A stretch of 64,000 nt of DNA from Siphonodentalium dalli (GCA_032622095.1 CP136061.1:191400369-191464368), one strand, 5' to 3'; positions 23,301 to 64,000 are shown, numbered from the stretch's first letter. A program made the numbers and translations. Notes: a model not told the origin generated them from the sequence alone.

Positions 23301-26300
23301 GGGGCGTAGAGTGGAAAGATTTATGATTATTACAATATAAACAACCTTGATAATTAAGGGACATCCAGTTGTTTTACACATTTCCTGAACTGACAGCTTG
23401 AGACTAAATGTTATAGCATAGCCTGAATCTATACTTGATATTCCTTCAGGAAAGGATAGAACTGTTGAAGACATTCTTAGAGAAATGGCTGCTATTGAGG
23501 CGAAAGCAAAGCAAGAAAATCAGCAAGCTTATGACGTCAAACTAACTTCCGATTATGTTAGTCCCAAGCACAAAGTGACAAAGCCAGGTGGGTTTCCAAT
23601 CTTAATTATGAGGTTTAAGTTTGGAGAATGTTTACATCGCACGTCAAGAAATATTTGACAGACTATATACCTCTGTATACCTATGGCATGAAAATATCAC
23701 CAAGTAGTGTGACAGCTATGTTCTAATTCCATATGAAGTCTGTGCAATAGTTTCTATCAGAAGTCTACAGTTGTATCTAGTCCGTACTATATGCAACCAC
23801 TTCTCATGCAAAACATGTTGTGCTTGTGTTATGATGAGCTTTACCCTTCCTTGACTGGAGCTTCCAGAAATTTTGCGAAAACCATGTGCCAATGCATTCT
23901 CTTATATATGTGAGTCTCTGATAGGGAGCCTCGCCTATATAAGAGAATGCATTGGCCTAACAATATTTACCTTGACCTTGTAAGCCAGTGCATTCTCTTA
24001 TATATGTGAGGCTCCCTATGGGAGAATCTTTAATGCTGCACCAGCTCCTCTCCCATCATGAAAGGGTTAATGTAAGAAACAAGTTCATCTTATAGAAAAC
24101 ATTTCCAAGTTATACTTGACTTCTAATAATTTTAAATTTTAGTTTCTTCAATATAGATTGACGTGATAAAAGGTTTATTTTCCTCGAGAATGATTCAGCA
24201 AATTGGGAACTGAGCTTTTGTTATGCTACCATTGAACAGTTTTTTTTTTATGCCACAGATATGAAATGGAAAATATGGGGAACAATTAAAAATCCACCCT
24301 GATCATGCCAAATAGTATCAGCAATATAACGACCTCCCATCCTCTCCCATCCTCTCTATCAAGTCACTCTCGCCTCTTTGCAGATGACACTATAGTCTCC
24401 ACATACGTAGGAAAAAGGAACCTATAATCCATGACTACTACCTCCACCATCAGAAACAAAATAGCACAGAAAAGGCAAAATATCTAGGAATAACCATCTC
24501 TAAAGATGTCTTGGAATTCTCACATAAATAACATCACAAACAAAGCCAATGCCTCATTAATATTTATCAGAAGAAACATCAGGACAAATAACCATAAAAT
24601 AAAAGAACTAGCTTATAAAACATTTGTCCGCCCTAGTTTGGAATATTGATCAACCATATGGCACCCATGGCAAGCATACCTAAGAGACCAAATAGAAATG
24701 GTCCAACACAGAGCAGTCTGGTATACACCGAACATCTTCAACTATGCAAGCCTTGTCTCTGACATGATAAAACACCTGCAATGGCCTTCTCTAGAACAGC
24801 GCCGATTATATTCATCACTGCCTCCCCACAACATCCAGAGGTAATAAATTTGTAATGTTTTCACTGGACCCAAATACATCGCTCCTCATTCTACCCACAT
24901 ACTATTCTTGCATGGAATTCTCTTGACCCTGCTATTGCTACCCTCACAGACCTGGACAAGTTCAAATCTGATCTTTAAAGCGACCACTTCAAACTCCCAT
25001 AACCTAACCTGTTCCTAATCTGAGTTTTCAGCATGTTTTTAAATAAAATCAAAAATTCACCATAAATATTGCACATCAAAATTGTATAGCTATACACAAT
25101 CATGTGCCTCAATTCAAACTTCAACATAATGAAGGTTAGAAGAAACCTATAAATTGATAGATAAAAACCCCTCATAGAATGCATTGTGTAAGGTTAGCCA
25201 TAGTAAGTTTGTGGGCATGAAATTAGTTAAGTCTAGATGAGAAATTAAAGCCCACATCCTACTTTCCTGTGCACTGATAGTCTGTCAGTGCTTGAAGTGT
25301 GACATATACTTTCTCTGAGACTCTGATCTAAACATGGCCAGTTCTTCACCTTTATCATGACCATGTAAAAAACGTTATAAATTTTTGTTTTCTGCTAAAT
25401 AACTTTTTTCATGAAGCATTTTGGGAACATTTTACGACAAATGTTCCATTTCTAAAATAGCTTTTAATCACTTTGTAACTCCTATAATACTATCCAATCC
25501 TTTTCTAGAGACCCACATGCAACTTTTATGGTATCTGCATGTCTGAAGGTAAGGAATTACATTAACTCTTGTCATCTTATGAGCCTTCTGATTCAATTAT
25601 ATTTATTTTTAGGACTTCAAAGACAAGGTGATATTGATGATCCAGACAAACTAGACTCAGAGAAACTTTACAAAGATGTCACTGGAGTCGTGAGTTATTC
25701 TAGTTATAAAGTATACCCCGTCTTTTCTTGTAAATTGTTAGAAATTGATAGTTGTATTCTCCTAGTGATGAAGTTATGGAAAATGATCAGTTTAGCAATT
25801 AAACCTTTCCATATCTCCGTCAAAGGTATCTTGCCCACTGAACTATATGGTATATCCCCAATATTAACAAGGAAGGGTTAACAAACCCGCGTTGAAAACG
25901 GAACGAAAATTCTGTGGTACATTTTATCCTGTTTCCTGACCGGTAACCTCGGATGACGTCATCTCCCAATGTCCATTTAAACTCAACGCCAGATCGTTAT
26001 TCTTCACTTTTTCCCTTGTTAACGGAAGGAACACATCGAAGATAAGTTGACAGTTTTTTGTGTTATACAAAAAACATTATTTCCGTTAATTATTATGTTG
26101 AATTGTGCAATTGACTCGCTTTGCTATAGCGATTAGCGTCCATGTTTTTAAACGATCGAGAACGTTCATAATTCAACGAATGCATCTTTTTTCTATTTGT
26201 CGTGGAACGGATGAATAAATTATTCAATAATAGATGCACATTTGGATATGACTAAAGACGCTAAAAATCTTTATAGCACGAATCGATTGCACACATGTGC

Positions 26301-29300
26301 GATTTTCTGTGGTCGAAGCAAAAATTACCACGTGCGTCACTTGGTTAGTAACAGTATCACGAAATTAAGTGACTTACTTTCAGCGGTCTGACGGCTTGGT
26401 AAACTGTAGCTACAATTTATTTATCAGAAGAAAGCAGTATTAAAATCTTATGAAAGCGGATTGTAAGGATATGCAATATATCCCGGCTTTGTGTGAAAAC
26501 TCTTTTCGTTTTAAGTCATTTCGTTTTCCATATTTTTTACAAATTCAAAATGGCATCTGTCCAAAAAAATTTGGTAGATTATAGTCGCCAAAAGACAGAA
26601 TGATATATGCACATTGGAATATGACTAAAGACGCTCATCTTTATTGCAAGGATCTATTGCATACATGTGAAATGTATTCCGTGGTCCAAGCGGAGGGACA
26701 CGTGCTCTGGCCTGTGCGATAAGGTATCACAAAATTAGGTGACTTACTTTCGGCTTCTGACGGCTTCGTCGCTACAAGCTTTATGTATACTAGAGTGTAA
26801 ATTGACACTTGTGAATAATTTTTTCATTGTTTCAACTTAACAATATTGGTTTACAAATATTGATTTCGTGCAAAACAATCGATAGGTGCTTATCATTATC
26901 AACAATGACAACATAAAAATAACAGATTGTTAGCAATTGTCAGAACTCGGTCAGATACCAAGCTTGTCAGGCTGAAAAGTCTCATTCAAGATCACTGAAT
27001 ACAGATCAGAATGCATAATGCCGACTTCCCCCCATTACAACACTTGTCCAGGTATGTTGTCTGGGTGCAGTACAGTTGATCCGTGTACATGCCTTTGAGT
27101 GTGCACATTAAAGAATGCTACTGGAATCGCCACAGATCCCCGTGAGGGTCGCAAGAGAAGAGAAGAAACCTTTGAGACCTGGACACTGACACTTGTCGAT
27201 ATATAGTGTTCCCCTCATCGGCGTAATTAGCACTCGGGGCGATACCTGTCGAGGGTGATCCCCTCTTTGGCTTAGCAACTCGGGGCGATAGTTACCTCAA
27301 ACAGGGCGCAGGTTGGGGCTACCCATCGAACCGATTAGTCACAGTTGGTGCGCTCCCTGGACTATCGTAAGGGACGTCAATCTGCTCCCTCGGGTCGACC
27401 ATTGGCGGGTTGGCGTGCCCAGGTGCGGCCGTGGCGTCCATCTAACATTTGAACCACGCGCTGTCCATCGCTACTAGTCACTATCTTGGGGTCAGCACGG
27501 CTGGGGGTTCGCCCTGTCCCTATAATAATCCTATATGCCTTCGGTCCCTGCTGGGCTTGGGCTGGGGTTGAAATTCCCAAGCATGCTTCCTCCTTGGTGG
27601 CCAACTCCAGGTCTGTGGGCCTGGAATTCCAGTTACTGGCTGCCTTCTGATCAAATAGCAGCCAGTACCTTCGGGTTTGAATCCTATTAAAGATGCACAA
27701 GAATTTGTTCCCCGATGCCGTTCTAGTAGGAGGCATGCTTCGGATCCTGCCCCTCTTAACAACCCATCGCCAGTTCGGACTGATGGAGATCGGGATCGGG
27801 ACGAGCTGTAGCTCTATCCCCGAGGTAAAAAGGCTCTGGACATTCCTTTGGGGTCACCCATCCATGCGCTCACGAGGGAGCTCAGATAGTTGTTCAGGGT
27901 TCTCTGATGCAGACAAGTGTCGCTGTAGCCGAGTGGTTAGGCCATCGGACTGCAAACTGAGCGACATGAGAGTGGACCAGGTATTCAAAAGTTTTATTCT
28001 CGGATTGAGCAGAGTTCAGCTCCTTGCTTTATATGTTATTGTTTCTTTCAATGTGCCCTCCGGCGCCTGCAAGGTCGTGGTCATGGCTGGAATAGACTGT
28101 CACCCGTGTGGATAGTCTTCAGGAATAATCTTTGGATGATTGGTCAGTCATATCACGAAGAGCGGTACTGATACAATGGGTCACTATATGAATCCATCCT
28201 AGACATATGCTCATCTTCAGAAAGCAACTGGTTTCCTATCTTCACGATTCACATTAATAACGTTGTACGCTCTTCATACGGACAGAAGATCCTTACCAGA
28301 TGCTTCCCCTCGTGCGAGGTATTCACTAGCATTGGGTGTAGGATGCCAGATTATATGCTCCGCCCACTAGCTTCGCACTTCAGGCGATGGTTGTCTCAAG
28401 AACAAGGTGCAATCAGAGGGGCCCCCCCATCCGTCCCAGAAGGGGTACCTTGGACCATCGACCCGTCGGGGGTCCGTCAGAAGATCAAGAATAGAGAGAA
28501 AAGAAAACTGGGTCTTTGTTTTTCAATAGTTAAACCGGCCATCTGTTTCGGCTGGTTTTGGGCTTGTGCCACAATCACGGTGCATGTTTCCTGTGATTTC
28601 TCAGTTGGGTTTAACTTTGGAGCTAGCCGGTATTTCAACATATTGAATATCGCCAGGTTGGGAAATGAAAGCCTTATCGAAATCATGAAACATATAAATG
28701 CCAGGCTCCAAATGCATTTCCTTTTGGGAGAATCGAAGCGGAAGCAGGTTGGTCATACAGCACTGAACTTTGAAAAGTTTGCAAGCATCATTACGAGCAT
28801 AGGTTTCGTGGTTCTCATTGAATCTCAAGGCTTGCATCCACTTGTTGCCTACTTTAGCGGACAGTTGAATAGACGTAGCCTTTCTAAACGGTCTATCTGG
28901 TTTCTTCTCGTCCCCTTATCTTCTCTTCTTCTCCATGCCATGAGACACATTGACAGCGACGGTGGGGCTTCATTTAGACCTTTCAATTTGTGAATGACTG
29001 CTTATGGTCCATAATGTTCACTGATTCATTAGGATCCTCTTGTTCACGTATTCAATGGTTAATTACAGATGTTCCGAAATTGGTTGTATGCACGAGCTAG
29101 TGTCCACACGCGGGTGTCCCCATTGGTATTCACGGCGGTCATTCGGACTACGTAAGCCTGTAATTTGCTCAATGTTGTGGCTAACGCGGGCAGGCAGGGA
29201 CTTCCTTGACGGGTCACCGGCAATTGGGGTAATTCCATGAATAGCTTATTCCTGTACTTCCTGGTTATAGGGTCAATGCAACGTTTCCTTTCTAGTACTC

Positions 29301-32300
29301 ACTAATACTACACGGCCCTATTTGAATCTACATTGGTGGGTCATCTTGGCACATTTGATTTTTCTGGTGCTTTCTATAAACAGCATTGTCATGTGCTCTG
29401 GTCATCAGAGCGACTCTAGGTTTTCTACAAATTGTCTTTTGGTTCCAACAATTACATGTATGGTTCCCTATGTCGGATTAGGTCAGTATTCCATACATTC
29501 AAATTCTTCTGGATGTATTACAGGGGTGGTGCAATCGACTATTTCGGCGAGAGTCTCTTCCCGGTCACTAGTATAGATTCTCTGTCCATGATATCTCAAT
29601 CCTTATCGACAATGGCATATCTCGGATTACTGGGTGTCTGGGCTCTTTTTGAGCTTGTAGCCGTTTAACTTTTTTCATCGGGCTAGATCTCATACTTGGA
29701 CTATGCCCCCTCAAAAATTGACTTTGGGATTGGTTCTATGGTTTTTATAGGGGTCTCCTTTGTCCTTTGAGGCCTTTGCCTCTGGTTGTTTCTCCATGTT
29801 CCTTATAATGCTGGTTATTCCTTATAGTATTTGTCTACACATGGGGTAGCCCTTTAAATACATTATTGCAAAATCCTCAATTTTCATTTTCTATTTCATC
29901 AGGAAATAGATATTTCTTCCCTTCTCCATGTGTTTCGGGAACTACCGGTATCTACTTTATTTGCAGGATATTCAATCCAAGTCACCACTATTTGTTTAGT
30001 TTGGGCCTTCTGGTAGCTGGCCAACATGTATTAGTCTTCTCGTGTAATTACGTACATTGGCTTATGTATATATTGTAGGTTATCAGGTCAATCCAGTTCT
30101 TGCCCATATAGTTCAGTGGGCAAGATACCTTTGACGGAGATACAATATTTTTCTAAGTAAGTAAAATATATATCTCCTAGAAGTATCTTGCCCACTGAAC
30201 TCTGAGCTCCCTCCCAGGGCTTCGCACCCACCCCGCTCACGAGGAATGTCCTAATGGGGAAAAAGTGAAGAATAACGATCTGGCGTCGAGTTTAAATGGA
30301 CATTGGGAGATGATGTCATCAGAGGTTACCGGTCAGGAAACAGGATAAAATGTACCACAGAATTTTCGTTCCGTTTTCAACGCGGGTTTGTTAACCCTTC
30401 CTTGTTAATATTGGGGATATACCATATAGTTCAGTGGGCAAGATACTTCTAGGAGATATATATTTTACTTATTTACAAAAATATTGTATCTATACTCAGC
30501 TTACTAGCTGACTAGCTGAACGTTCCTACATACGATTATAAATATGTATCTAACTACTCGTCAGTGAATATTCAACATCATTCAATTATCATTTACTAAA
30601 TGGATTCTACCACCCAGTTATAAAAGTATATATTGGAATGGTGTACTATTAATTTGGAGGGATGTTCAGGAAATAAGACTAGACGACAGACAGACGAAAA
30701 GCTAATATATAAAGGGCAAAAGGACTCATATTCTTTGGTGGGAAATGTATAATATCGGTAGCTTTGCGCAAGTCGGCAATACCATACAATCGAGTAGGCC
30801 AAGTTTCTGCTGCCAACTCAAAGAGTTTTCATGTTAAATATACAGCTCTACTGAAAGTAATGTGGTGTCACTGGGGTATTATAGTTTATACGGCATTAAC
30901 CTGCAACTCCGTGGTAAGGTGACCGCTTCAACACTGCGTATTCTGTGGTTGCACCATGATTCATCATTCATGCAGTCCCAGTTCGCAGGTATGAAAATAA
31001 AATTGAGTGATCTTCATTATCATAATATGAATGCATTATTATCTGCAAAACACACTTTGCATGAGCTGTTTGTTTACACGCAGCACATAAATAGTGAGCA
31101 ATAAGAAAAACACTTTGGATTTTACTCTTTGCATGAATTAATCTTTTGGCATGGGCTACAAATCGTAACTTTGGTTGGATCATTATGAAATTTGTCATGG
31201 TTATTGACATATAGATGGGAACGATTCATTGTGAATATTAACATCCATGACAAATTTAATGATGATAAGACACTCCGGCCGGTAGCCCGTGCTAATGGAT
31301 TGAATTCTGAAATCCATGATGGCCGCTGGTGGTCATGATTTTTGCCGAATGACCCCAAAATGATTTGTTAACATTAACATGTCAAAGGAAACAGCCATAA
31401 CAGTACATTTGAGGGCTCGCAAATTACGTTTACGTATAGTCATATTAATTTCAATAACATTATCTGAACATTTCCTAAGGGAATTATCGTCAATGAGTAT
31501 TTAGTATAGAAATGGTTAATGCAGTGAAAATAAAATTCATGTCATTGTCATAATCAGGGGTCCGCAAATTGATTATTACTGGTCCATTTGAACAACTAAA
31601 CACTTAAAATCAGACCTACAATGTTGATGTGCTATAGAACTTCTGCACGTATGGTGCAGACAAATAAAATAAAAACCTGCACTATTAATATATGCACGCA
31701 CAAGTAATATCTTTACCGCCCGTAACTTAATAATCATCTTCAGAGTATGTAGTGTATATTTAAACTGAAAAAGGATAATTCGATCAATCATCATCAGACA
31801 AGGTAATGTGCATGAACAGTGATAATACTTCTCAAAGCATGATACACATAGCGGCAACTTGAAAGTATTTATAACCGGCGTCAGGAACTCGCAAAATTCT
31901 GCTCAGCTTCTTTGATTTTGCATCAACTGGAACTGGTCTCCCCATTTGCAGACAATGATTGCAGTATTGTGATGTTCCGATAATGAAACTGCCCATTGGA
32001 CCGATTTCCGATAACTGGAGGCACAGTCAGCCGATTTCAATTCCGAATGTATGTATATTGGCATTTGTTCCCATATACACTCTTTGAACACCCTATTGCA
32101 GATCACTTTCAAAGCCAAATACATCAAAGAAAGATACACACACTTGTCGCAAAACTATTTCTGCTGACGTAAGCTGCGGGCTGCCTTTGATACTTGTTTT
32201 GACAAAGAGGTCACAGGTGCCGACTCTGAGTGATGACTACCGAGTAACGTTATGACCAAGCATTAAGCACATGCACGCAGTGTAAAAGTCTTTGACTTGT

Positions 32301-35300: not shown

Positions 35301-38300
35301 ATTGAACAAATGTACAACAGATGCATGCTTCCCTTTAACAAGTGATTTGGAGAAATACATCTCCATTCTCCTTTAATTCTTTCTAAATAATCATTGTTGA
35401 GTAGTTACAGTCCTCAAAATTAGGAATAAATAACATGTTGTCATGTTACATTAGTTTACCACACCTTTTCCATGGCACTTCCATAATACTCAAATGACTG
35501 TCATTTGCCTTCTATTTTATCACATCTCTCAGCCGAGTCGGCATATATGTGATACCGCCGTGTCTTGCAACCGATGAATAACTTCCAAAACTCTGCTACC
35601 ATGGCTGTGTTCATTTAAATGTGTTGAATCACCCCCAAGATGAATAGTACAGGTACAACTGACAATGTTACCCTGTTGTCATTTGCAATAGATCCAATGA
35701 TCCAATAGATTTAATGTTTAAAGAGGTGGTGATTGGAGGTAATTCCTTTTTATACGCCCATTTGAAAAAAAACGGTCGTATTATGTAAATGGGTTGTCCG
35801 TCTGTCCGTCATCCATCTGTCTGCTTTTGTTTTCTGGATGATAACTTTAGATTGAATCGAGTGAGCTGAATAAAATTTGGTATGTTAGTTTACCACACCA
35901 AAATACAGATCAAGTTCGAATTTGGGTTTCGTCCACATGATTTTGACTGAGTTATGCCCCTTTTTCGACTTAGATTTTACCGGATATTGGTTTCCAGATT
36001 GTTGTGTTTTATTTTTGTTTTTATTTCGTCTCTTAAGTCAAAGGTTTCAAACAAATGAATTAAACCTTGCCCCACTCTACTCCACTTGTTGATGATGTAT
36101 TTAAAAGGTCAACAGTTTGTAACTTCCTTTTTGTGATACACTTTTCACATCATTGGGATGTATACCGGGTGACCCAATTGGCAGTTAACCAATCACTAAA
36201 CAGGATTTATTGTAACACAGACAGGCTATGTAAATATATTTGAATATCCAATTTATTCTTATCAGAGGAATATTGTTGCGAATTTTGCACATGGTGATGA
36301 TCAAACAGGACTGTGCATCTGCAGTAATAAATTAAGTATCTTTGAAAAATGGTACAAGAGACAGACTGTTCAAAGAGCATAGCATGATCAATCTGTAAAT
36401 CTGTTACTGATTTGTGTTACAGAGATGCGTATAGGCCTGTACATGTGAGTGTGCCTCATATTTGCAAACAATATCAATATCAACTCGCATGAGATTAGTG
36501 ACTATCTACAAAGTGCATAAATACTTCAGTTTAATTACAAAAACTTAATTGGAATGTATATGAATTACACAACCGGAGAGTTGTACATGCGATGTTATTT
36601 TCTTATAAAAATACTTTATACACTGAAATATCACAATGCTGTATTGGGAACAAATTCGCGACCTATGATATGCACAGAGGGGGCTGGACGCTCAAGATTA
36701 GTTTCGATATTGACATCGGCTTTCAATTTCGATATTGGATTTTTAATCTGTGGGAAAGTGACGATTCGCAGGGCCCTACTTTGAACTGGTATGCACATTC
36801 AATATTTTCACAGGATCTCCATCACCAAGAGGTAAAACTGTAACAAAGAGCAAAACTCAATCTAGAAACCAGGAACCAGATGCTCTTGAGCTGTTTGCTA
36901 ATTACATGAATGAGAAACATAAAATACTACCCGAGGTAAATATATATACAGTAATGCCCTAAATAATTGATTCCTCAACCACAGCAGAATTGTGGGGAAT
37001 TTGTTCAGGATTTAGTTGGAAAATCCTGAAAAATTACCCATAATTGTGCTGTGGTTAAGGAGTCGATTATTTAGGGCAATTATTGTACAAGTGTATCATG
37101 TATTCTTTTGCTCAGATTTGCCACAAGTGTTAGAAATGCAAAATATTATTACTTTTCTAGAGCTTTTAGTAGCATTCCAAATTGTGTGATGTTCTTGAAC
37201 ACTGGGCCAATAATGAAATTCTTGTTTGGCCCACCTGCCAGAACCTGATAATAATACTGGTAATAACATGAATTTGTCTGGTATTGTACGTTATTAATTG
37301 GCTCTTTCCATATTGACTGAGTTATGAGGCTGAGATCTCTCGTATGGCATCAGGCCGATATGACAGACCTAGGTCTCATAACTTGGTCAATGTGGAAACA
37401 ACCAACTTATAGATATTTTATTAATTAGCAATGGCAAATTGTGTTATTTCACAGGAAGAAAATGATAACATATATATGTTGTGTGTTTTATTAAATTAAC
37501 AATTACTCCCAACAATATTTTATACGCTTCTTGAAAAAACGGAAGTATTATGTTATTGGTTAGTCTGCCCGTCCGTTCAACTATCTGTTCGCTTTTTTTC
37601 GTTTCCGGATGATAACTTTAGAAAGTCAGAACTGAATGGAATGAAATTTGTATGTTGGTTTACTAGCACAAAATACAGGTCAATATCAAATTCGAGTTTC
37701 GCCCACCAATTTTCACCAGAGTTACGGCACTTTTTGTTGGAATTTCTACTCAATTTTCATTTTTCCGGATGATAACTTTCGTAAGCCTGAACTGAATGGC
37801 ATGAAATTTGTTATGTTACTCATTATGGACCTTTGTCGAAATTACGACGGGTGTATTTTGCCGTGCCCTAGCAATGCTCTTTTTATTCTTGTGAACTTTG
37901 TGCAGAAAATGCAGCTATTTCACAGTACTGTCTGTTTCGACTGGGAACGATTTTGATATGGATACTTCCTCGACGTATAGTTGTACCCATAAACAATGAC
38001 AGTCCGATAATAAACCAAAACACCCGTGAATGTCATGTTATTGTATTATTGACATTAATAATGTACAATTATTGAAAGTATATGGAGATTTCCATGATGA
38101 CTGTAGCAGTTAATATCACAAGAATAATCTGAGAGAACATGACAAAATTAATTACAGTAATGCCCTAAGTAATCGACTCCTTAACCACAGCAGAATTATG
38201 GGTAACTTTTCAGGATTTAGTCGGAAATATGGCTTGTTGCTATCATCGGAAAGCTCTCAGTGAGAGCTTTCCGATGAATGGCAATAAGCCATATTTCCGA

Positions 38301-50300: not shown

Positions 50301-53300
50301 GACATGGCTCTTCGTCTATGGCGGCTGTTCTGGGTGGGGAAGACTCGTTGTCACGTGACGCTCTTGCTCTCATAGACATAGCGCACCAGCCAAATGGCCT
50401 TCTGACTCTTCCCCATGGTGCAGTGGCCCACATCATTACAAGATGGGGTCCAGTCGATCCCCTGGAATAGTAATACCTTCGGGATACATCCGGGCCTGCT
50501 CCTCCGCAGTCATGTGATCATAGTGGTATATCATCGACATATCCACTGATTATGTGACAAAACGATTCGATACAATCATGACGAAAATACAGGCATTCGT
50601 ATCTTCACGTCCGCTGTAAGCGCACTTTCCTAACGGAAACCGCCTAGTTCTTGCCTATGTGCATTCGGAACTCATCGTCCTCATATACGAGAAAAGACAG
50701 TATCTTACCTGTCATAGCAGGTAAGATCACGTGGCCAGGGGTATAACGTGATTTTATATTAACCTTACTTTATATTCAATAACCTAGGTTGTATTGTGTT
50801 ATGTGTATTAACCTTGCTTTGTTATAACTAACAGCATGTCTTGCAGTCGAACATGATTCGAATTTGATGGCCACACACCGTGCAGGTTGCTCATTCACGG
50901 GTGTATTACTTGTTATAGTTGGGTAAGGGCATATTAGTCAATGATTACCTACTTTGAGCAACCGTACCAGTCTTTACCTCGGGCAGGACCAGTTCTGGCC
51001 CCCCAGGTCCTGCTACGGCAGTTGAACCAATGGTAGGCGGGTGCTGCATGCGGTTGATTCGGGAAACCAATCTTCACGGGCGATTGCTCCGGCACCTTTC
51101 TCTCAGGTGCCTAATGGTAGTGGCAATACGATTATTAAATTTCGAAAAAATTCACATCGATATACTATTATTCCACATAGAGTGAAATTTCCATCAGTAT
51201 TTTGATTTCGGCCTGGATTCCTGCCACGAAGATCTGTTTATTGGGCACCTGGGAGTAGCCTTTGGCGGCTGTTCTGGGTGGGGAAGACTCGTTGTCACGT
51301 GACGCATATGCTCTCATAGACATAGCGCACCAGCCAAATGGCCTTCTGACTCTTCCCCATGGTGCAGTGGCCCACATCATTACAAGATGGGGTCCAGTCG
51401 ATCCCCTGGAATCGTAATACCTTCGGGATACATCCGGGCCTGCTCCTCCGCCGTCATGCGATCATAGTGGTATGTCATCGACATTTATTCCAGTTTGGTC
51501 AGGACCACCTGCATTTGGGGGATTCCATGGAAGGGGCTTCCTCTGATCAAATGGCTCATCAGAACTTATTCCCTCTGGCCTTGGGGGCGCAGCTTGATGA
51601 TGCCCCAGAATTTGAGGGGGTGACCTTGGACAGGCCATAGCTACTTATCCCAAATGCAAGAGCATTTGTCTTGCGTCGAACCATTTCAGAGTAGGCCTCT
51701 TCCACAGTCTGGTATCCCAACCTGATGCAGCCAATTCTGTTGGCGTCGATCTTGACATGCTTCTCTGCATCGCATGGCGTCGGCAGGTTTGACGACGATG
51801 AGCAAGAATCGCGGGTCGACAGTGGGTCGTCAGGCACACTGTCGGACGAGGATTCTTTTATAAAAGAACAAAGAAGAAAAGAAAAAGAAAGAAGAAATAA
51901 AAAGAAGAAAGAGAAAAAATAGCCTTTGGAGGATGTTCTGGGTGGGGTAGACTCGTTGTCACGTGACGCTCTTGCTCTCATAGTCTAGACATAGCGCACC
52001 AGCCAAATGGCCTTCTGACTCTTCCCCATGGTGCAGTGGCCCACATCATTACAAGATGGGGTCCAGTCGATCCCCTGGAATCGTAATACCTTCGGGATAC
52101 ATCCAGGCCACTCCTTCACCGGTAGGAAAGAAAGGCTGAATGATCTGGGTGGGGAAGACTTGTTGTTGCGTGCCTCCAAGTGCTGCACCAACCAACCTTC
52201 TAACTCTTCCCCATGGTGCAGGGGCCCACATCTCCACAAGATGGGGTCCAATCCCCTGGAATCGTAATACCTTAGGGATACCTCCAGGCCACTCCTTCAC
52301 CGGTAGGAAAGAAAGGCTGAATGATCTGGGTGGGGAAGTCTTGTTGCGTGCCTCCAAGAGCTGCACCAACCAGCCTTCTATCTCTTCCCCACGGTGCAGT
52401 GGCCCACATCTCCACACGATGGGGTCCAATCTCCTGGAATCGTAATACCTTCGGGATACCTCCAGGCCACTCCTTCACCGGTCATTTTGCAATTTTGATC
52501 ATTCTGCTACATTTGATCATTTCGAAATGTACCCGACACTCGTTATGTGCGCCATCATAGATCACTGATGCTTCTATGCTTGTTCATCAAGTCCGCTGTG
52601 GTGTTCTCTAATCCCATATATACTGGTATGCAATGATACCTTGGATCATGATGGCGTTCCCTGCTCTCTACATTATACGAGGCTGGAGTACAGATGTGTG
52701 GCATGATATAATGAAACCTCATACCTCGCTATGATATCTGCAGCATATCATTTTTATATCTGGTTTGTGTATCACAGGGAGCAATTTACTTTCGATATCT
52801 GATTAGCAAATAATCTCACATTGACATGATTAGATAGCATTTTTATAACATCATACATGTATAAAGAAATTCCTCGCTATTACCGGTATCCACATTTCAG
52901 TGGCAAATCGCGATGCGATTCCAGTTAATTTGCTCCCTGGTGTATCATAAGCATTCTGATATCTTATGGCCTACACAATGGCTGCATGTGACATCAGTTC
53001 ATAATGTGAACTGTCGAGAGAGCGAAGAAGATGACAAAGAGAATAGGATGCAGCAAAGTTATACTTGCTCGGTTGTCTCGCTAGCATGAATTATATGGCA
53101 CTACCTGGGATGTTTATTCCAAAAACAAGGGGGGCGGGCGGTACACATTTGAGCAATGTCGTAATCTGAATTGGGAGCTCTTTCACGTAACATAATCATA
53201 TCTGATTCATGACTAAATCACATTTACATGAATCATGTTTCGGAAGAGTACATTCCCATCGAATTTGGATATTAATTAACTTTATTGCTCGTGCCTCCTC

Positions 53301-53950: not shown

Positions 53951-54042
53951 GTGAGGTAGCTGTACTTTGAAGTACAATGTTGTTAAGGTGAGGTAGCTGT
54001 ACTTTGAAGTACAATGTTGTTAAGGTGAGGTAGCTGTACTTT
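53932..54042 (+). repeat. 37-bp unit, three copies, spanning the exon 22 donor
   Basis: Units at 53932, 53969 and 54006: gaagtacaatgttgttaagg then tgaggtagctgtacttt. The first supplies the last 19 exon bases and the donor at 53951. Copies two and three contain identical donors at 53988 and 54025. Using either would retain 37 or 74 bp and a TAG right after the normal junction. Confidence 0.96.
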
Positions 54043-54043
54043 T

Positions 54044-54255
54044 CAGTAATGCCCCAAATAATCAACTCCTAAACCACAGCAGAATTATGGGTAATTTTTC
54101 AGGATTTAGTTGGATATATGGATTGTTGCCATTCACCGGAAATCTCTCAGTGAGAGCTTTCTGATGATGGCAACAAGCCATATATCCGACTAAATCCTGA
54201 AAAATTACCCATGATTCTGCTGTAGTTAAGGAGTCAATTACTTAGGGCATTACTC
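54044..54255. mobile_element. Complete TA-family mini-element
   Basis: 212 bp, cagtaatgccccaaataatc to gtcaattacttagggcatta, around ctctcagtgagag. More diverged than the copy at 38155. It lies just downstream of exon 22. Confidence 0.92.
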
Positions 54256-57195
54256 TATTTCAAGAGTCAAAGTCGGGTTGAAAAATGGGAAATTAAGTAT
54301 AATATTTACTTCTCGATTTGGGATGCATATATCTCCGTCAAAGGTATCTTGCCCACTGAACTATATGGTATATTATCCCAAGTAGGAGGGGTTAACTCTC
54401 TGAGTTGAAAAAAACGTACGGAAATTCTATGGTACATATCTTCTGTCATGTTCATGACCTGTGTAATCACGTGGTTTCTGACACGTAGTGAAAGAATCGC
54501 CATATTTTTTTCCCTCCTCACCAGGACGGGTGCAAAAAGAATCTCTCACAAAGAATACGAAGCTAAGTTGCAGTTTGTATAGCAAAAACAGTTTTGTTTT
54601 TGTTTTATACAAACAACATTATTTCTTTGCTTATAGTTGAAAATTATGTAACGATTCACATAAAGATTACGACGGTTTGTTCCGAATATAATAATATCGG
54701 AATCGGTTGACTCGTTTCGTTTTAACCGACTTTGTCTTCCATAATTTTAATCGGTCAATGATTTAATATCCGTTTTCTGTGCAGACAATGCAACGTTTCT
54801 GGCCTATTAAAGGCAGAACATTCGAGGCACCATTGGATATGACTAAAGACGCTGATCGTTTTCTTTATAACAAATCTATGGCATACAGGTGACGTGTTAT
54901 TTAAGTTACCACGTGCGTTGATGGTGGTTAAAGGTATCACGAAATTAGGTGACTTATTTTCGAGTTCATTTTTTCGTTTGACGCCTTTCTTTATACGTTG
55001 ACAATCATCGTCTGGTGTACAACTGACGGACAAAGCAGTGTTTAAACGCTTGTGAAATATGCTGATAGGATTGTAAAATCCCGAATGTCACTTTGAACCT
55101 TTTTCACCCTGGATGATCAACAATGGGGCCGTTACTGCCTTGGTTGCCACATGGTAACATAACACAACAGGTGTATTTGTGATTGTTCGCAATCACATTA
55201 ATTACTTTCACAGGACTGCTTATCGAGGTAAGACCAGGTTCATGAATCGCCTTCCCCGTAGCTCCCCTTGAAGTCGCTTCCCTCGTTTCGAGGTCCCAAG
55301 AGTTGAGAACGAAAGTCGATATATAGGGTTCCTCTAATTGGCGTAATTAGCACTCGGAGCGATAGTCACACCACACAGGACGCGGGTTGGGGCTACCCAT
55401 CGAACCCGTAGCTCACACGAGTTGCTTCCCCTAGGACACGGACAAACTCGCGGGGAAGGATCCAGAGACTTTTTGTTTGGGGACACCTGTTCTGTATTTG
55501 AGTATGTGCCCATATAAATTTGGATGTTAAAATATTCAGGACTGGATACTTGATTGTGCAAATAAAGGCTCCATATTATAGACTATATATCATCTGCGGG
55601 CTGATGATTTGCATTACTAGGACATTTTGTTGAATTGTAGAAAAATTCCTTGAAAATATGGAAGATCCAACTGGAATAAATACTATCTACATGGAATTTG
55701 GGTACATTTGGGTCTCTATAGTTTGGGCACCCAAACCTGTAACAGGTATCAAAACATCCCTGTATCCTTCTCTGACTTGCCGATATATCGTGTTCCTCTA
55801 ATTGGCGTAATTAGCACTCGGGGCGATAGTCACACCAAACAGGCGCGGGTTGGGGCTACCCATTGAACCCATGAGTCACATTGGTGCGCTCCCTGGACTA
55901 TCGAATGGGACGTCAATCTGCTTCTGCGGGTCGACCGTTGGCTGTCGACGTGCCCCGGACGGCTGTGACCACTGAGCTCTACTAAAACACTCGACACACG
56001 CCGTCCATCGCTACAAGTCGTCATCTCGGGGTCAGCGCGGCTGGGGGATACACCCTCGGTGATCCCTGACCATGCTCTCCGGTGCCTTATGATCGTAGTG
56101 TGTGGAAATTTGGGCTAAAATTACTAGTCGAATGGCCATTTTACTTTGTCTCAATTCCAATTAGGAGACTTTTTCTCAATTTATTACATTTACGCAATTA
56201 TTTGGCACCTGAAAGTTTATCCTCCATGCCTTCTGCCCCAGCTGGGCTTGGAATGGGATCACAGTTCACAGGCTTGTTTCCTCCTTATTATAAGTCCCCA
56301 CTTCCGGGGGCTTGGCTGACAGGTTACTGGCCGCATTCTGGCCAACAGCTGCCAGTAACTTCGGGTTTGATTTTAAATGAAAACAAAAGATCTTATTCCC
56401 TGACGCCATTATAGCAGGAAGCTTGCTTGGGAACTGGTACCTACTAACCTCCCATCGCCAGTTCGGTCGGTTGGATATCGGGATCGGTCCTGCTGCTGCT
56501 CCACCCCGAGATGTACAGGCTTTGGACATTCCTCCGGGGTCCCCAATGACCAGACCTCACATGCAATTAGAAATGAAGCTTGTCATGGTGTATTGTGCTG
56601 TTAACACTCCATCGACGGATGGAGATCAGGATCAGATCGAGCAGTCGCTCCAGCACGAGGTGAAAGGGCTTTCGACATTCCTTTCGGGTCACCTTTACAT
56701 GCGCTTACGAGGGAGCTCAGTTAGTTGTTCAGGGTTCTCTGATGCAGCCAAGCGCAGGAAGAAAATTAATGTCGAATTTTGATTAGCAAATAACCTCAGA
56801 TTGACATGATTTGATAGCATTGTTCTACAATCATTTACAATTTAACAGAACATCAGAGTGCTTTCCCTTGTTTAGAGGGTTCCAAGGAAGCGATAGAAAC
56901 CTTTACGACCAGGACACTGTCACTTGTCGATGTATAGTGTTCCCTTCATTGGCGTAATTAGCACTCAGGATGATAGTCCCACCAAACAGGTCGCGGGTTG
57001 GGGCTACCCATCGAACCCATTGGCCGCATTTGGTGGGCTTTCTGGACTATTGACAGGGACTCCAAGTCGGATACTACGGGACGACTGTTGGCATACCCTG
57101 GGACAGTCAAATGAGGAAATAGGATACAAGTTGCATGGCTTTTGTTAGCATTTGGGTAGCAACTTGCCCTGTGATGCCGGTCAGTTTGTACCCTG

Positions 57196-57285
57196 CTTAA
57201 CATCGTCAGAGATGGGTGGTTATGCCATCGGACTGCACACTTGGCGACCTGGGTTCGACCTTCCTGAGAGGTATTCAACCATTTT
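57196..57285 (+). other. tRNA-like module in element 4
   Basis: gggtggttatgccatcggac, then gcacacttggcgacctgggt and ttcgacc, a good B-box match. Counterpart of 27917-27990 in element 1. The 5-prime part is degraded. Confidence 0.55.
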
Positions 57286-59200
57286 ACTGTTCTCGGGTTG
57301 GGATGTGTTCAACTTTTTGCTTTAGAAGTGGTTGCTTCTTTCCATGTTCCATCCAGCTCTTTCATGGTCACAGGCTTTGCTGGAGAATGTCTATAGTCAT
57401 TCATATCACTAGATTAGTATATGACTCTCGCCCTTTCATTTTCCTGACTTTTTAAGACGTGTTCTGGACTGGTTCGGGTGCTCGATAGGGTAAATATTTA
57501 CATCTCGATTTGGGACGCAAGAATCAGAGATCAACAAGCATACATGCTTTATCTCCGACCTCGCTGTGTTTCAGTAATAGTTACGAATGACATATATTTT
57601 GTCTTCAGGTTGCTTTCAGTGCTAACTCAACATGGATTTCACTTTTGTTGTCCAGTCATACATAGATGAGTCCATTATCCATGGTTCGACATATGCTCAT
57701 ATTTCCGCTAAAGGAAGCCGTTCACACTGAACTATATGGATAGATGTCCTGCGTTTGTAAAACCATAGTAGAAAAGGGGTTAACTTTTTGTGTGTGGTCG
57801 CCTACGGTACCTCGCGGTCTTGCTCGGATTAGTCACGCATGCGCAGTCCCAATATAACCGACTGAATCCGCCAGTTTATTTTCTGCTACCAAAGAGAGAA
57901 GTCTAAAGGGAGTATTGTTCCGAATTTGTCGTTTAACAACTAGACAACAAATTCAATTTATCGATACAATAATTACTGGTCGCCTACGCGTTAGTTTTTA
58001 GAATTATTGTTTCGAATTCACGGACCGTTTTGCTTCAAAACATACAATTGTTCCGTGTTTTCGAATAGGCGGCGGACTTAATATTTTTCGAATCTGAAAA
58101 TCGACATTTCGCCATAATCAGCCGCCATTTCAAGGCCATACGAGGCGCATAGACTATTGTGAACAATTCATCTATGTAATTATTATAGAACCTATAAGGT
58201 ATGATATAATTTGTCAGATATAAAAAATGCCACGTGTTTGTTACCGGAAGTCTCCTAATTTCGTGGGAATTTATTTACGCGTGAACATTTATTTAGCAAT
58301 AATTCCCATCGCTACTGACGCTATTTATCATAATGTTATGAACTACATTCTTTCTCATAATACTTTGTTGTTTTATGGCTCAATACAACTGATCCAGATG
58401 TGTTGGTCACATTTGAACTTAAAAGTTGATTACAATTTACATCTGGGTTTATCAATTCAATGTAAAAACAGTAGTGTCATTATTACTTTAATAAATTGAC
58501 AGAGATTGATATTGGACAAGTGTTATAATTATGTTCATGGTTTGATTCTCGTAACGGAGCATCACCTTCAATGTAAAAATCTCAGCCATGTGCTAGCGGA
58601 CCGGGGATTGCACCCTGGTCAGGGTATTCTGACAGAAATCAGAACTCGGTCCGATACCAAGTTTGTCAGGCTAACAAGTCCCATTTGAGATTACTGAATA
58701 AAATCCGAATGCAAATGCCGATTTTCCCCATTACAACACTTGTTCAGGTATGTTGTCGTGGGTGCACTACGCTGCACATGTACACACCTAGGTGTGTGCA
58801 TGTTACAGAACACTACTGGAGTCGCTAGATCTCATCTAAACAACATGCTTTCACAAAATACTTTGTGTTTTCTGTTTTAATACTGTCACACATGTCTCCT
58901 ATGATTTAGATGTGTTGGTCGACGCTTGAATTTATCAGACTACAGTTTATCAATATCAGAAAAATAATGACTGTTGTCGTACTAAGATTCGTTAGTGTCA
59001 TTAATTTCAGACAGGGATTGACATCTGACAGGAGTCAGAATTCTGTTGAGTACATGATTCGATTCTCGTACAGTGCTTCAACTTCACTGTCAAAATTTAT
59101 AACTGCTAGCATTTAATGATTGCAAGCATGACACTAAAATTAATCGTGATGACAGTTTCACTATTGTCTCAATTCCAGATTTTAGTTATTCTGAATTGTA

Positions 59201-59796
59201 TCCAAAAATTAACCCATCCTTTCAAAATTGCTGGGTTGTATCTCGACAAAATGGTGTCTCCTTCCGGAATACAAACATAATTGCTTTCCTTCCTGTGTAG
59301 GTTTACCGAAAAGAAGCGGGGGGGGGGGGGGGGCTCTAATTGGGACACAAAATTACAAATCATGGGTGCTCCGGTTTGCATTCTAGAGTAAGGCAAGAGG
59401 CTTATCGTCACTCTGACGGTGTTTACTCATGGTTTCACTATCTAAAAATATATTTGAAGATACTTTGGTTTGAACAACCTTTCCCCTTCTTGATTATCCA
59501 AAAATTAACCCATCCTTTCAAAATTGCTGGGTTGTATCTCGACAAAATGGTGTCTCCTTCCGGAATACAAACATAATTGCTTTCCTTCCTGTGTAGGTTT
59601 ACCGAAAAGAAGCGGGGGGGGGGGGGGGGATATGGCTCTAATTGGGACACAAAATTACAAATCATGGGTGCTCCGGTTTGCATTCTAGAGTAAGGCAAGA
59701 GGCTTATCGTCACTCTGACGGTGTTTACTCATGGTTTCACTATCTAAAAATATATTTGAAGATACTTTGGTTTGAACAACCTTTCCCCTTCTTGAT
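59201..59796. repeat. 296-bp tandem duplication with poly-G tracts in element 3
   Basis: tccaaaaattaacccatcct starts at 59201 and again at 59497. The copies are almost identical, differing mainly by the poly-G run (about 59321 and 59616) and a few bases after it. Confidence 0.95.
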
Positions 59797-61129
59797 TCAA
59801 TTATGTGAATGATTCCAGCCTGACAGGTATTTAGAGTCGTGGTGAATTGACCCCTCCAGGTAACTGGCCCACTGGCAATAACTAGGCGACCGTGGCCTGG
59901 ATGACGTTCCCCAATGAATAACGATATAATAGCAGTGGTATTCCAAGACGAGGAAGGTGGGGGGAGACATTATTTATGACAAGTAACCATATCAAATGTG
60001 AGCTTGGTACAAGAACAGGCTGTACATCCAATACAGCATGTATTGTTCATAAAGGGCATGGTAGGTATTTTGAAGGTATTCATGGACTAGTTGGAGTCTC
60101 AATGAATTTTAAAATATATACGTGTCCCGACCTTTCATACCGTTGATATGGCGAATATACTTTCACACACGAATGAAGCATATTTACATGGAAAGCATTT
60201 ATATTGCCATGTGTCCCACGACCACTGCCAATAGCCTTTCTGACAAGAGGCCATCAGCATGGCTCTTCATACTTCTATTGCCCATATCAATTTGATTATC
60301 TGGCACATAGACAATAAAACAGGCAAAGACGTTTGCGCTGTCCAGCTAAGCTTTCGAGGAAGCTCATTGACCAGCATTACCGACCTTTCCTAAGACGCAG
60401 GCAGGGGACCACCCCGTTCGAGTGGCATCCCATCCCCATGGCACAGATGCCCGATCATAAGGGCCTGAAGCCATGCTGCCAACTGCGCATTTCGGTCTAT
60501 GCTGTCCTCTCTTCCTTAAACATGCCATAAGCGGGACCACTTAGGTCGGGGGAGTTCCTCTCTATCTTGGCTCTTCAAATTAAAATAAAACAACATTATA
60601 AAGGGATGTGTATCCTTTACTAGGAGGATGATAATTTCATTCCTTTCCTTCCTAGGGGAGCCATTTTTAGAGCGGGTCTTCCCCTAGTTTGCTGCATGCT
60701 TCACACTAACCGACCTATCACACACCTAGGTCGTTCTGCTGCATGTTTGGGGGGGCAGAGGCTCAGACCTGAATATTCCGTATGATGACCGTGAAAATTT
60801 ACCTGTGTTCATCATCTGACTACATTTTACATCATTTGAACTGATTTCGGTTGTAGAAGGCGCACCTTCATTTCTTAGAATCGGATCGCGGTGGGTATTC
60901 CGCTGGGAACGCGGACTGCTCTCAGGTGCCTAGTGGTCGTGATGGCCTAATAATAGTAATGTGTGTGGATTTAGGCTGAACATAATACTTGTGATTGCAC
61001 ATTTTGCTGTCTGTCTCCATTCCAAAGGATGGTGCTCGTTGGGAAATTTCTCCGAAATTAATACTCGTACCGACACTATTGTTTTGGCACCTGAGAGTAT
61101 GCTTTCTCATTGGATGCTCTGGTCACCTG

Positions 61130-61640
61130 CGGTGTTCGGCCATGTTCTCTGTGGGGCTATATATATATCTTTAATGATACATTGGATTGTGCCAGGGATC
61201 TCTGCTCTGGCTCCGACCATTGGATTGTTGGGCGCAGCTTTAGTAGGGTCTTCTGACATGATCTCATGATGACTTATATATCACCATGATATATCTATTA
61301 TATCATTTTATATATCTATATATGCGAAAGATTTGTGTCACCGGGTTTCTGCAATGATATCTTGTGAAACGGTGATACATAGGTACCTCAGAGACATGAG
61401 ACATGTTCTCTGTGGGGTTGTATATCTATATTTAGTGATACGTTGGATCATGACAGGGAGCTGTGATCTGGCTCCGCCCATTAGATTGATGGGCGCAGCT
61501 TTGGAAGGGCCTTCTGACATGATCTCATGAGGAAAACTTAATATGTATATCCCCCGGATATATATATTATATCATTTTATATATATATATACGCAATGTG
61601 TATATTGTGATACATAGGTACCTCAGGGACATGTGAACGT
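61130..61640. repeat. About 264-bp tandem duplication in element 3
   Basis: catgttctctgtggggctat near 61141 and catgttctctgtggggttgt near 61405, followed in both by ggcgcagcttt, cttctgacatgatctcatga and a tatatcatttt stretch. The copies are moderately diverged. Confidence 0.88.
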
Positions 61641-62578
61641 GTGATAACTGTTCTAAGGGCAGGACCAGTTCACGCTCCTCCGGTGACGTATCAATTCGTT
61701 GGTTCAACCAATTCGTGGGGATACGTCTGGTGGAGCTGCAGGGGTACTTTGGACCTCCAGGCCATTTGGCCCCCACCAGACGCTAGCGGTTCTGGGCGCT
61801 AAAGCTGCCAAATAATCGAGTGCGTACGTATCGACACCGGCTGGATGGCCTTAGGCAGCTTAAGCGTAGGGCAGGGGCCGTACCCATGAGGTAAAGCGCC
61901 GAGTCCCCCTGGTCACGATCGAATTAACGACACGGCCTTGCCTGCCACTCCTCCGTGAAGGGATCGGAGAAAAATGACCTCTCCCCACCCTCCAGCTTGG
62001 CCAGGATATTAGCTTGGGCATGACCACCTGCAGCATGCGATGGTGGGGGCTCCCTCTGATCCGATGGCTTGACTCGCTTATAGTTGTATAACCCATTGGG
62101 GCTGGTGGGCTCTCCATTTGATACTTGTACCATAGATTGGGCATCAGGTTATCTGCCATTTGCATTGGTGAACAGCAGTTAGTTAAACTCTTAATGTTGG
62201 TTGTCTTGCCATCTTTAGAGTGGGCCTCCTCCAGTGCAGGTCGTTATGTCGCTAAGGCGGAGAGGGAGTTAGTCTCCTCGAATCTCAAAATCGGCTGGAT
62301 TCTTAGAACTGACGGATGAAGAACAGAGAATTGCTCAGTTCGCTCGCAATTCTGAATTGAATGGCACCACCTGGGATGTTGCTTCCAAAAAACAAGGGGG
62401 GGAGGTACATGTTTGGGCAATATAGCACTCTAATTATATGAGTTATTTCACGTACCTAATCATAACAGATTCATTAAAGAGTTCATATTTAGGTACAATC
62501 TGTTTTAGAAGAGTGCATTCCCTCCAAAATTTGGCTATTAACTTTATTGCTCGTGCCTCCTCCTGGGCTTGCATTCTA

Positions 62579-62678
62579 ATCCATATAGTTCAGTGTGAAC
62601 GGCTTCCTTTAGCGGAAATATGATATTTTTAAAAATATAATATATATTTCCTTAAAGAAAGCCTGAACACTGAACTAT
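62579..62678. repeat. Internal complementary region of element 3
   Basis: atagttcagtgtgaacggct then tcctttagcggaaatatgat corresponds to the inverted left end; atttttaaaaatataatata to gcctgaacactgaactat to the inverted right end. Confidence 0.9.
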
Positions 62679-63799
62679 CATAGGGCCCTCCCATGGCGGT
62701 GCCATTCCCAACCCCGCAACTCGCCAATCTCCTGATTGAGTTGAAAATAAACTGGCGGATTCAGTCGGTTATATTGGGACTGCGCATGCGTGACTAATCC
62801 GAGCAAGACAGCGAGGTACCGTAGGTGACCACACACAAAAAGTTAACCCCTTTTCTACTATGGTTTTACAAACGCAGAACATCTATCCATATAGTTCAGT
62901 GTTCAGGCTTTCTTTAAGGAAATATATATTATATTTTTAAAAATATCATTTTCAGAACACTGTTGACATGAGGTCTCGTTCAGCACCCCACTCGGTCCTT
63001 TGCTGACCTCAGCGATTGCCAATGCAGGATAATGTTGCACCTGTGGGGCAGCATATGAATCGTGTTGGGCACAATTCATAAAGTTTCATTACATACCTGC
63101 CGTCGGTTTCTGCTGGTTTTGGGCTTGTGCCACAATCCTGATGCCTCGTTAGTCCAATTTTTGTTTTGTGGATTTCCACCTTAACGATATTGGAATTTCG
63201 GTTCCTGGATGCCTTTCTGTCATGGATTCAGTAGCCTGTGATTGGTCAGTTGGGTTTAACTGTGTGGGTGGGCATTTCCATATTTGGGAACGTCATCGGG
63301 GAAAAAATGTTATGGCTTATTACATCTTAGTCGGTCATATCTCGAACTCCAGGCTTCAAACTAAGTTTTCTGCTGTGAAACTCCAATTCTGAGCCCTGTT
63401 CTTCATACGGCCTGAGCCTTGCAATGTATGTCTGTGTAATACCCATTCGCTTCCCGGTCAGGCTATTGGTCACTGATACCTCCTCCTTATCGACAATGGC
63501 ATGTCTCCAAGTAGTTGGTGTCGGGCCCTTTCTTGGGAGCTTGCAGCTGGTTTTTCATCGGGCTCTCATCGTGTACTGGGACACGGCCCAACCCACTCAC
63601 GATTTGGGTCGGGGGTGGGTTCTATTGTTTTTAAGGGGGGTCTTCGTTATTACTTGCGGCTTTTGCTGCCTGGGTTAGCCTGTTAGGTGTGGTATTAGTA
63701 TTTAGCCATCCCTGGGTTTATAATACCCGGCTGGGGATTTCTTGTCAACGGGTATTTTTCTATTTCCATTTCCTTCGAACATGGATGCTTCTCCCCTTT

Positions 63800-63800
<1 letters not shown>

Positions 63801-63851
<51 letters not shown>
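63801..63851. repeat. Homopolymer of 51 G
   Basis: An uninterrupted run of G between cccctttc and tgttacccg inside element 4. The overlapping 69-codon ORF is only a polyglycine reading of it. Confidence 0.98.
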
Positions 63852-63852
<1 letters not shown>

Positions 63853-64000
63853 GTTACCCGTACCTTTCCCGGCAAGTACTCGGCTGATACATTATTAGCC
63901 CTAAGTTCCGATGCGAATGTCGTATCCGACTATCCATCTCCAGGTCTTCTGAAGCTATTTACTTTACTTGCAGGGGTCTTAAACTCTTTAAGTGGCCACT

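Follow-up and report, generated by a model that had tools for sequence, protein, structure and literature searches.

Large non-coding DIRS1-type families in Siphonodentalium dalli, most likely mobilised in trans by a related autonomous DIRS

Analysis of a 64,000-nt window of the Siphonodentalium dalli genome (GCA_032622095.1, CP136061.1, here contig C1:191400369-191464368; 2.23 Gb in nine chromosome-size contigs), supported by about 30 elements or element ends sampled from the genome, showed that it holds three complete non-coding DIRS1-type elements, W1, W2 and W4, and a fourth element of the W1 type that is split by W4. We consider it very likely that these represent large non-autonomous DIRS1-type families, resembling the large retrotransposon derivatives (LARDs), which would be mobilised in trans by related autonomous DIRS elements. 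A sequence-only reading of the window had described a non-autonomous DIRS-like family of four related copies with full terminal structure. The family is borne out by all 13 complete W1-type copies and all 12 3' halves being non-coding, at loci up to 99.8% identical; full terminal structure holds within the window for W1, W2 and W4, whereas the copy beginning at 54330 is interrupted by W4 and has its right end outside.

In DIRS1 elements a left inverted terminal repeat (ITR), the left and right halves of an internal complementary region (ICR), a right ITR and a right extension follow one another, the ICR halves overlapping at a short circular junction, and a box of at least 10 nt is common to ITRs and ICRs (Piednoel 2011, PMC3266345). 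Every structural feature tested was found in the window elements: ITRs, a two-part ICR near the right end, a circular junction of ~3 bp, a shared box of at least 10 nt and the absence of a target-site duplication (TSD). Three long inverted-repeat pairs from the repeat analysis of the window, with arms 4.2-4.9 kb apart, coincide with the noted elements, all of which lie on the plus strand. W1 (25812-30489; 4,678 bp), with TAT common to its flanks and circular junction, consists of a left terminus and ITR bearing the box ACTGAACTATATGG (25812-26015), an ICR at 30104-30201 and a right ITR with right extension (30257-30489). W2 (~48624-53679; ~5,055 bp, its ends placed to within 1-3 bp owing to a T run) has its ICR at 53317-53421, and W4 (57698-62949; 5,252 bp), delimited by its ends, ICR and empty site, at 62580-62678. 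In each the ICR lies directly 5' of the right ITR, and the ITR pairs are 95% (W1, 25811-26015/30257-30461), 98% (W2, 48640-48793/53486-53639) and 92% identical (W4, 57699-57883/62743-62927).

As in the DIRS1 arrangement, W1, W2 and W4 each contain an internal segment of ~100 nt that equals the reverse complement of the element's own left end joined to its own right end. In all of their termini either the box ACTGAACTATATGG or the core of it, ACTGAACT, is present; the full box occurs in the ITRs and the left ICR half, and the right ICR half retains ACTGAACTAT in W2 and W4 or ACTGAACT in W1. Outside the box the termini of the three elements are strongly divergent, yet every ICR tracks its own ends. 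In 12 of 12 copies from mixed W2/W4 subfamilies the right ICR half was the best or tied-best match to the copy's own right end, with a mean score of 45.8 against 30.3 for other copies, and none of 20,000 permutations of these 12 copies reached the observed total. The split direct repeats of PAT and Ngaro elements (A1-B1-A2-B2) were not found, the ends being inverted rather than direct, and the Crypton organisation, a single tyrosine recombinase (YR) gene with no terminal repeats, does not apply to elements with long ITRs and an ICR. The elements are assigned to the tyrosine-recombinase class because of their ICR, their circular junction and the absent TSD; a DDE-transposase partner, which would have altered this class, was not seen. 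At one further locus, L073 (C1:35308083-35309400), several W1-type termini and ICR-like palindromes lie within ~250 nt and are followed by a tandem repeat, possibly a cluster of rearranged or nested ends.

The insertion of W4 can be read directly from the window. The sequences on its two sides, GACATATGCTCAT and TTTCAG, adjoin each other in W1 at 28202 (GACATATGCTCATCTTCAG), giving the empty site GACATATGCTCAT^YTTCAG, which is likewise intact in almost every other W1-type copy that contains this part. There is one CAT in the target and one CAT at each junction, with no further TSD. Because the W4 flanks run uninterrupted in W1, W4 is nested in a single W1-type element, with one half at 54330-57697 and the other at 62950-64000. 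The left half has a left end identical to the W1 type and an interior 59-84% identical to W1 25812-28091; in the right half (locus L090), 63084-63666 aligns collinearly to W1 28521-29779 and 63801-63851 is a run of 51 G; the element continues past the window to ~64606, and its ICR, its right ITR and its right end occupy ~64239-64606 (window coordinates), 0.2-0.6 kb past the window end. The joined outer flanks of this host element resemble a repeat beside copy L064 and so provide a second, approximate empty site. A purine and then T(AT) close the left flank in 13 copies of the W1 family, nearly all of which have a right flank starting with D-T-Y; the W2/W4 group is inserted into T-rich sites. 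Judged from these alignments, the flank patterns of both groups agree with recombination through a few bases common to circle and target, and a W4-type circle is predicted to carry the junction ...ATATCAT-ATTTCCGC....

The families are abundant. Exact ICR patterns, used for the genome-wide copy count that the sequence-only reading had proposed, matched 740+719 W2/W4-type sites and 475 palindromic W1-type sites, and reversed control patterns matched none; the total of ~1,900 is approximate, as both patterns fit a few W1-type sites and copies with mismatches are overlooked. W1 and the twelve further complete W1-type elements, of 2.4-7.8 kb, lacked coding capacity (13/13), as did 12 of 12 3' halves from different W2/W4 subfamilies and one further W1-type ICR locus. 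Most non-coding elements are 4-5.6 kb long (range, 2.4-7.8 kb). W2 is 99.8% identical over 1,263 nt to copy L084 (C1:19.04 Mb), 172 Mb away, and the 3' ends of W1-type copies are pairwise 95.3-99.7% identical; by these identities, some non-coding copies are young. Divergence between the ITRs was rejected as an age clock, since left-right differences are near constant in W1-type copies (90-95% identity), i.e., fixed in the family.

Within the window interiors the largest frame has 273 codons from stop to stop (W1, 28172-28993) and 216 from its first ATG, in keeping with the earlier statement that no open reading frame exceeds 216 codons. This frame was rejected as a gene, as substitutions across 11 copies are even over codon positions (38/38/42), and a similarity to reverse transcriptase (RT) noticed in it by eye fails against shuffles. 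A Pfam profile search in six frames, with stops read through, returned nothing above threshold in any of the four window interiors, and an autonomous DIRS from the same genome gave RVT_1 at 2e-19 in the same scan.

A coding relative with matching ends is present in the same genome. A first look yielded 3,593 DIRS RT candidates and 1,447 tyrosine recombinase candidates. The first 30 YR loci fetched were mostly Crypton-like, and the box was absent from all 30 and from three other DIRS 3' ends. The Crypton-like YR loci examined were rejected as helpers, having no box in common with the W elements, as were L086-L089 (three other DIRS lineages or members), which have regular DIRS 3' ends and unrelated termini. 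A search for loci in which the reverse complement of the YR motif TF..FY lies at a set distance after the box gave 4 and 33 matches over two distance ranges (37 in total; control, 0). Among them, L091 contains frames for RT/RNase H (531 aa within the piece) and for YR, the latter ending ..EVRAISASWAYQNSVALRDIMSAAYWSQPSTFSSFYLRDL..; its ICR lies 125 nt past the YR stop, and its right ITR bears the same box. L094 is the left end of the same element, with a left ITR and a gag frame, and L092 and L093 are further YR-bearing members. At least 14 copies of the L091 type have both ends, mostly 5.7-5.9 kb apart, and most of their ITRs are 93-100% identical to the query. In the ICR and circle-junction region W4 aligns to L091 with 79% identity over 146 nt (E 5e-25), W1 with 69% (E 2e-13) and W2 with 66% (E 1e-11). 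The L091 type made up 2 of the first 100 ICR rows on C1, and the non-coding elements therefore outnumber it roughly 50 to 1. The shared ICR and junction, together with the recent copies, suggest that an L091-type partner mobilises the W families in trans.

Several observations weigh against this assignment. Beyond the box and junction, the L091 ITR is not close to that of W1 or W2, and the genome is rich in further DIRS lineages and Crypton-like YR elements, which might act as helpers. It is less certain that the L091 type acts on W1 and W2 in addition to W4, since they have in common no more than the box, the ICR flanks and part of the junction, and other autonomous subfamilies may be the direct helpers of W1 and W2. 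In a rival reading, the same non-autonomous elements would depend on a different helper altogether, for instance a separate DIRS lineage or a YR of the Crypton type that acts on DNA circles. The many other DIRS RTs and single-ORF YR genes, and the resemblance of the L091-type ITR to W1 and W2 only near the box and ICR, speak for such a helper; we nevertheless consider it unlikely, given that 0 of the 30 fetched YR loci and none of the three further DIRS 3' ends have the box, against 37 YR loci that are linked to it, and that the W4 circle junction is close to that of L091.

Some of the Crypton-like loci (L032, L050-L052, L054, L055, L058 and L060) are single-gene YR elements with ORFs of ~510-650 aa and carry a near-perfect palindrome of 140-190 nt 3' of the gene, preceded by AATAAA; elsewhere in the group the palindrome is weaker. 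Terminal repeats are described as absent from animal Cryptons (PMC3212892), and this conserved 3' hairpin may merit study for that reason.

The interiors of the W elements are not entirely devoid of DIRS coding sequence. The earlier statement that no RT, RNase H, recombinase or gag can be seen stands for Pfam and for inspection by eye; DNA comparison and frameshift-tolerant protein-DNA alignment against the genome's own DIRS proteins, with 200 shuffles, revealed decayed remains of gag in W2 and W4, and of YR in W1. The W4 gag relic (61643-62187) matches the partner gag both as DNA (61650-62187 against L094, 69% over 542 nt, E 1e-72) and in protein-DNA alignment (score 205; maximum of 200 shuffles, 60). 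That of W2 (50842-51522) is weaker and consists of collinear pieces (score 78; shuffle maximum 67; 0/200), and DNA comparison with L094 also found decayed gag in copies L075, L080, L081 and L082. In W1 a YR relic (29549-30033) corresponds to YR aa 71-191 at 29549-29928 (score 70, 0/200 shuffles; 94, 0/200, in copy L070) and then to the C-terminus (aa ~323-347), ending at ~30033 directly 5' of the ICR, the position expected for the end of an intact YR gene (z 5.8-8.4 in three copies). A W1-like YR tail was searched for in W2 and W4 and not found, and a protein-DNA scan of the elements with the L091 RT did not rise above shuffles. The window elements thus have no RT/RNase H of their own, YR only as a frameshifted relic and gag only as decayed relics. 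The stops and frameshifts in these relics are common to copies at different loci; therefore, coding capacity had been lost before the families spread. The relics strengthen the claim of non-autonomy while correcting the statement that gag and recombinase are absent.

The same relics bear on whether the elements are dead autonomous DIRS copies, each of which moved while coding and then decayed in place, as the sequence-only reading had held would follow from a profile hit to a degraded DIRS polymerase or recombinase in these interiors. Degraded DIRS genes are present, as gag in W2 and W4 and YR in W1, but the inference fails on the disabling changes shared among separate loci, on W1-type 3' ends that are 95-99.7% identical although all copies are non-coding, and on the 99.8% identity of W2 to a copy elsewhere. 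We regard decay in place as very improbable and, on these comparisons, as already refuted at the level of the family. Practically negligible is the possibility that these are DNA transposons or foldback elements, to which the long terminal inverted repeats might point: each ICR reproduces its own element's ends in joined form, the ends are asymmetric through the right extension, the W4 empty site shows no TSD, and the relative with the same ends is a coding DIRS and not a DDE-transposase element.

The remaining interiors, G+C-rich relative to the genome, are built of repeated modules, partly common to and reshuffled among the families, such as five copies of a module of ~180-225 nt in W2 (50316-52482), whose RNA fold is not significant. 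The earlier description of the interiors as repeated modules was thus right for this part and missed the part that is decayed DIRS coding sequence. An RNA-structure role for the modules was rejected, with fold z values mostly about -1.9 to +0.7 and -3.0 in one W4 stretch, and the modules had no Rfam or tRNA match.

Under the preferred reading of trans-mobilised non-autonomous families, the elements would descend from coding DIRS elements whose gag, RT/RNase H and YR eroded or disappeared and which acquired repeated filler, while the left terminus, right terminus and ICR were retained through the decay. An element would be transcribed from its left ITR and reverse transcribed by RT/RNase H provided in trans; the circle would be closed with the ICR as splint and template for the junction, and a tyrosine recombinase of the L091-L093 type would insert it through ~3 bp common to circle and target, without target duplication. 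The RNA stage, the trans-acting RT/RNase H, the ICR-templated circle and YR integration in trans are taken over from the DIRS model. It is conceivable, if rather doubtful, that the non-coding elements form an independent, long-lived DIRS lineage at ~50:1 over its helper, with subfamilies in which ICR and ends change together and modules kept for roles in cis (e.g., RNA packaging or reverse transcription).

The window also holds smaller repeats. A palindromic, MITE-like (miniature inverted-repeat transposable element) repeat of ~217 nt with two arms of ~90 nt (CAGTAATGCCCTAAATAATCGACTCC...) occurs at 22626-22844, 38150-38368 and 54039-54257, the last preceded by three 37-bp tandem units (53932-54042), and in part at 18157-18712 and 45140-45253. 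Related inverted-repeat elements at 21163-22028 and 39093-39550 each contain an 81-nt near-perfect palindrome (21766-21846 and 39287-39367, respectively), and a 32-bp tandem repeat fills 9547-9801 in eight copies. Flanking exons encode a coiled-coil protein that, from the translated flanks, we take to resemble CEP162.

LARDs are large non-autonomous derivatives of long terminal repeat (LTR) retrotransposons. The W families share with them a non-coding interior of several kilobases between intact terminal signals and presumed mobilisation in trans, but LARDs have LTRs and rely on a DDE integrase, not on ITRs, an ICR and a tyrosine recombinase. With DIRS1-like elements, including the mollusc AcaDIRS and LgDIRS (PMC3266345), they share ITRs with divergent and conserved parts, the right extension, the two-part ICR, the ~3-bp circular junction, the box of at least 10 nt, the absence of a TSD and a size of ~5 kb; unlike them, they have no RT/RNase H and no intact gag or YR, the interior being decayed relics and modules. 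SIRE, derived from VIPER of trypanosomes (PMC6681497), is likewise a non-autonomous YR-retrotransposon derivative that retains both ends, but it measures ~0.4 kb, and VIPER is a member of a different YR group, whereas the W families are mostly 4-5.6 kb with DIRS1 ITR/ICR anatomy. Non-autonomous Cryptons (PMC3212892) are also non-coding, served by a tyrosine recombinase and commoner than their autonomous partner, but have no terminal repeats, ICR or RNA stage. The concept is therefore not new, as SIRE and non-autonomous Cryptons were already known; a described non-autonomous DIRS1-type family was not found in the literature searched, a search that lay outside Repbase and Dfam, and a large, dominant non-coding DIRS1-type group with a coding partner appears to be undescribed there.

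Published DIRS surveys require three simultaneous domains (Piednoel 2011, PMC3266345) or a retained protein domain (Muszewska 2013). A non-coding family of ~1,900 copies escapes such domain-based surveys and would be classed as an unknown repeat, while the ICR and box pattern locates non-coding DIRS families straight from DNA. The joint change of ICR and termini across subfamilies provides evidence from natural variation for the ICR-templated circle model, and a 5-kb element that needs only its ends and ICR would constitute a natural minimal substrate for DIRS mobilisation, a process that is experimentally poorly characterised.

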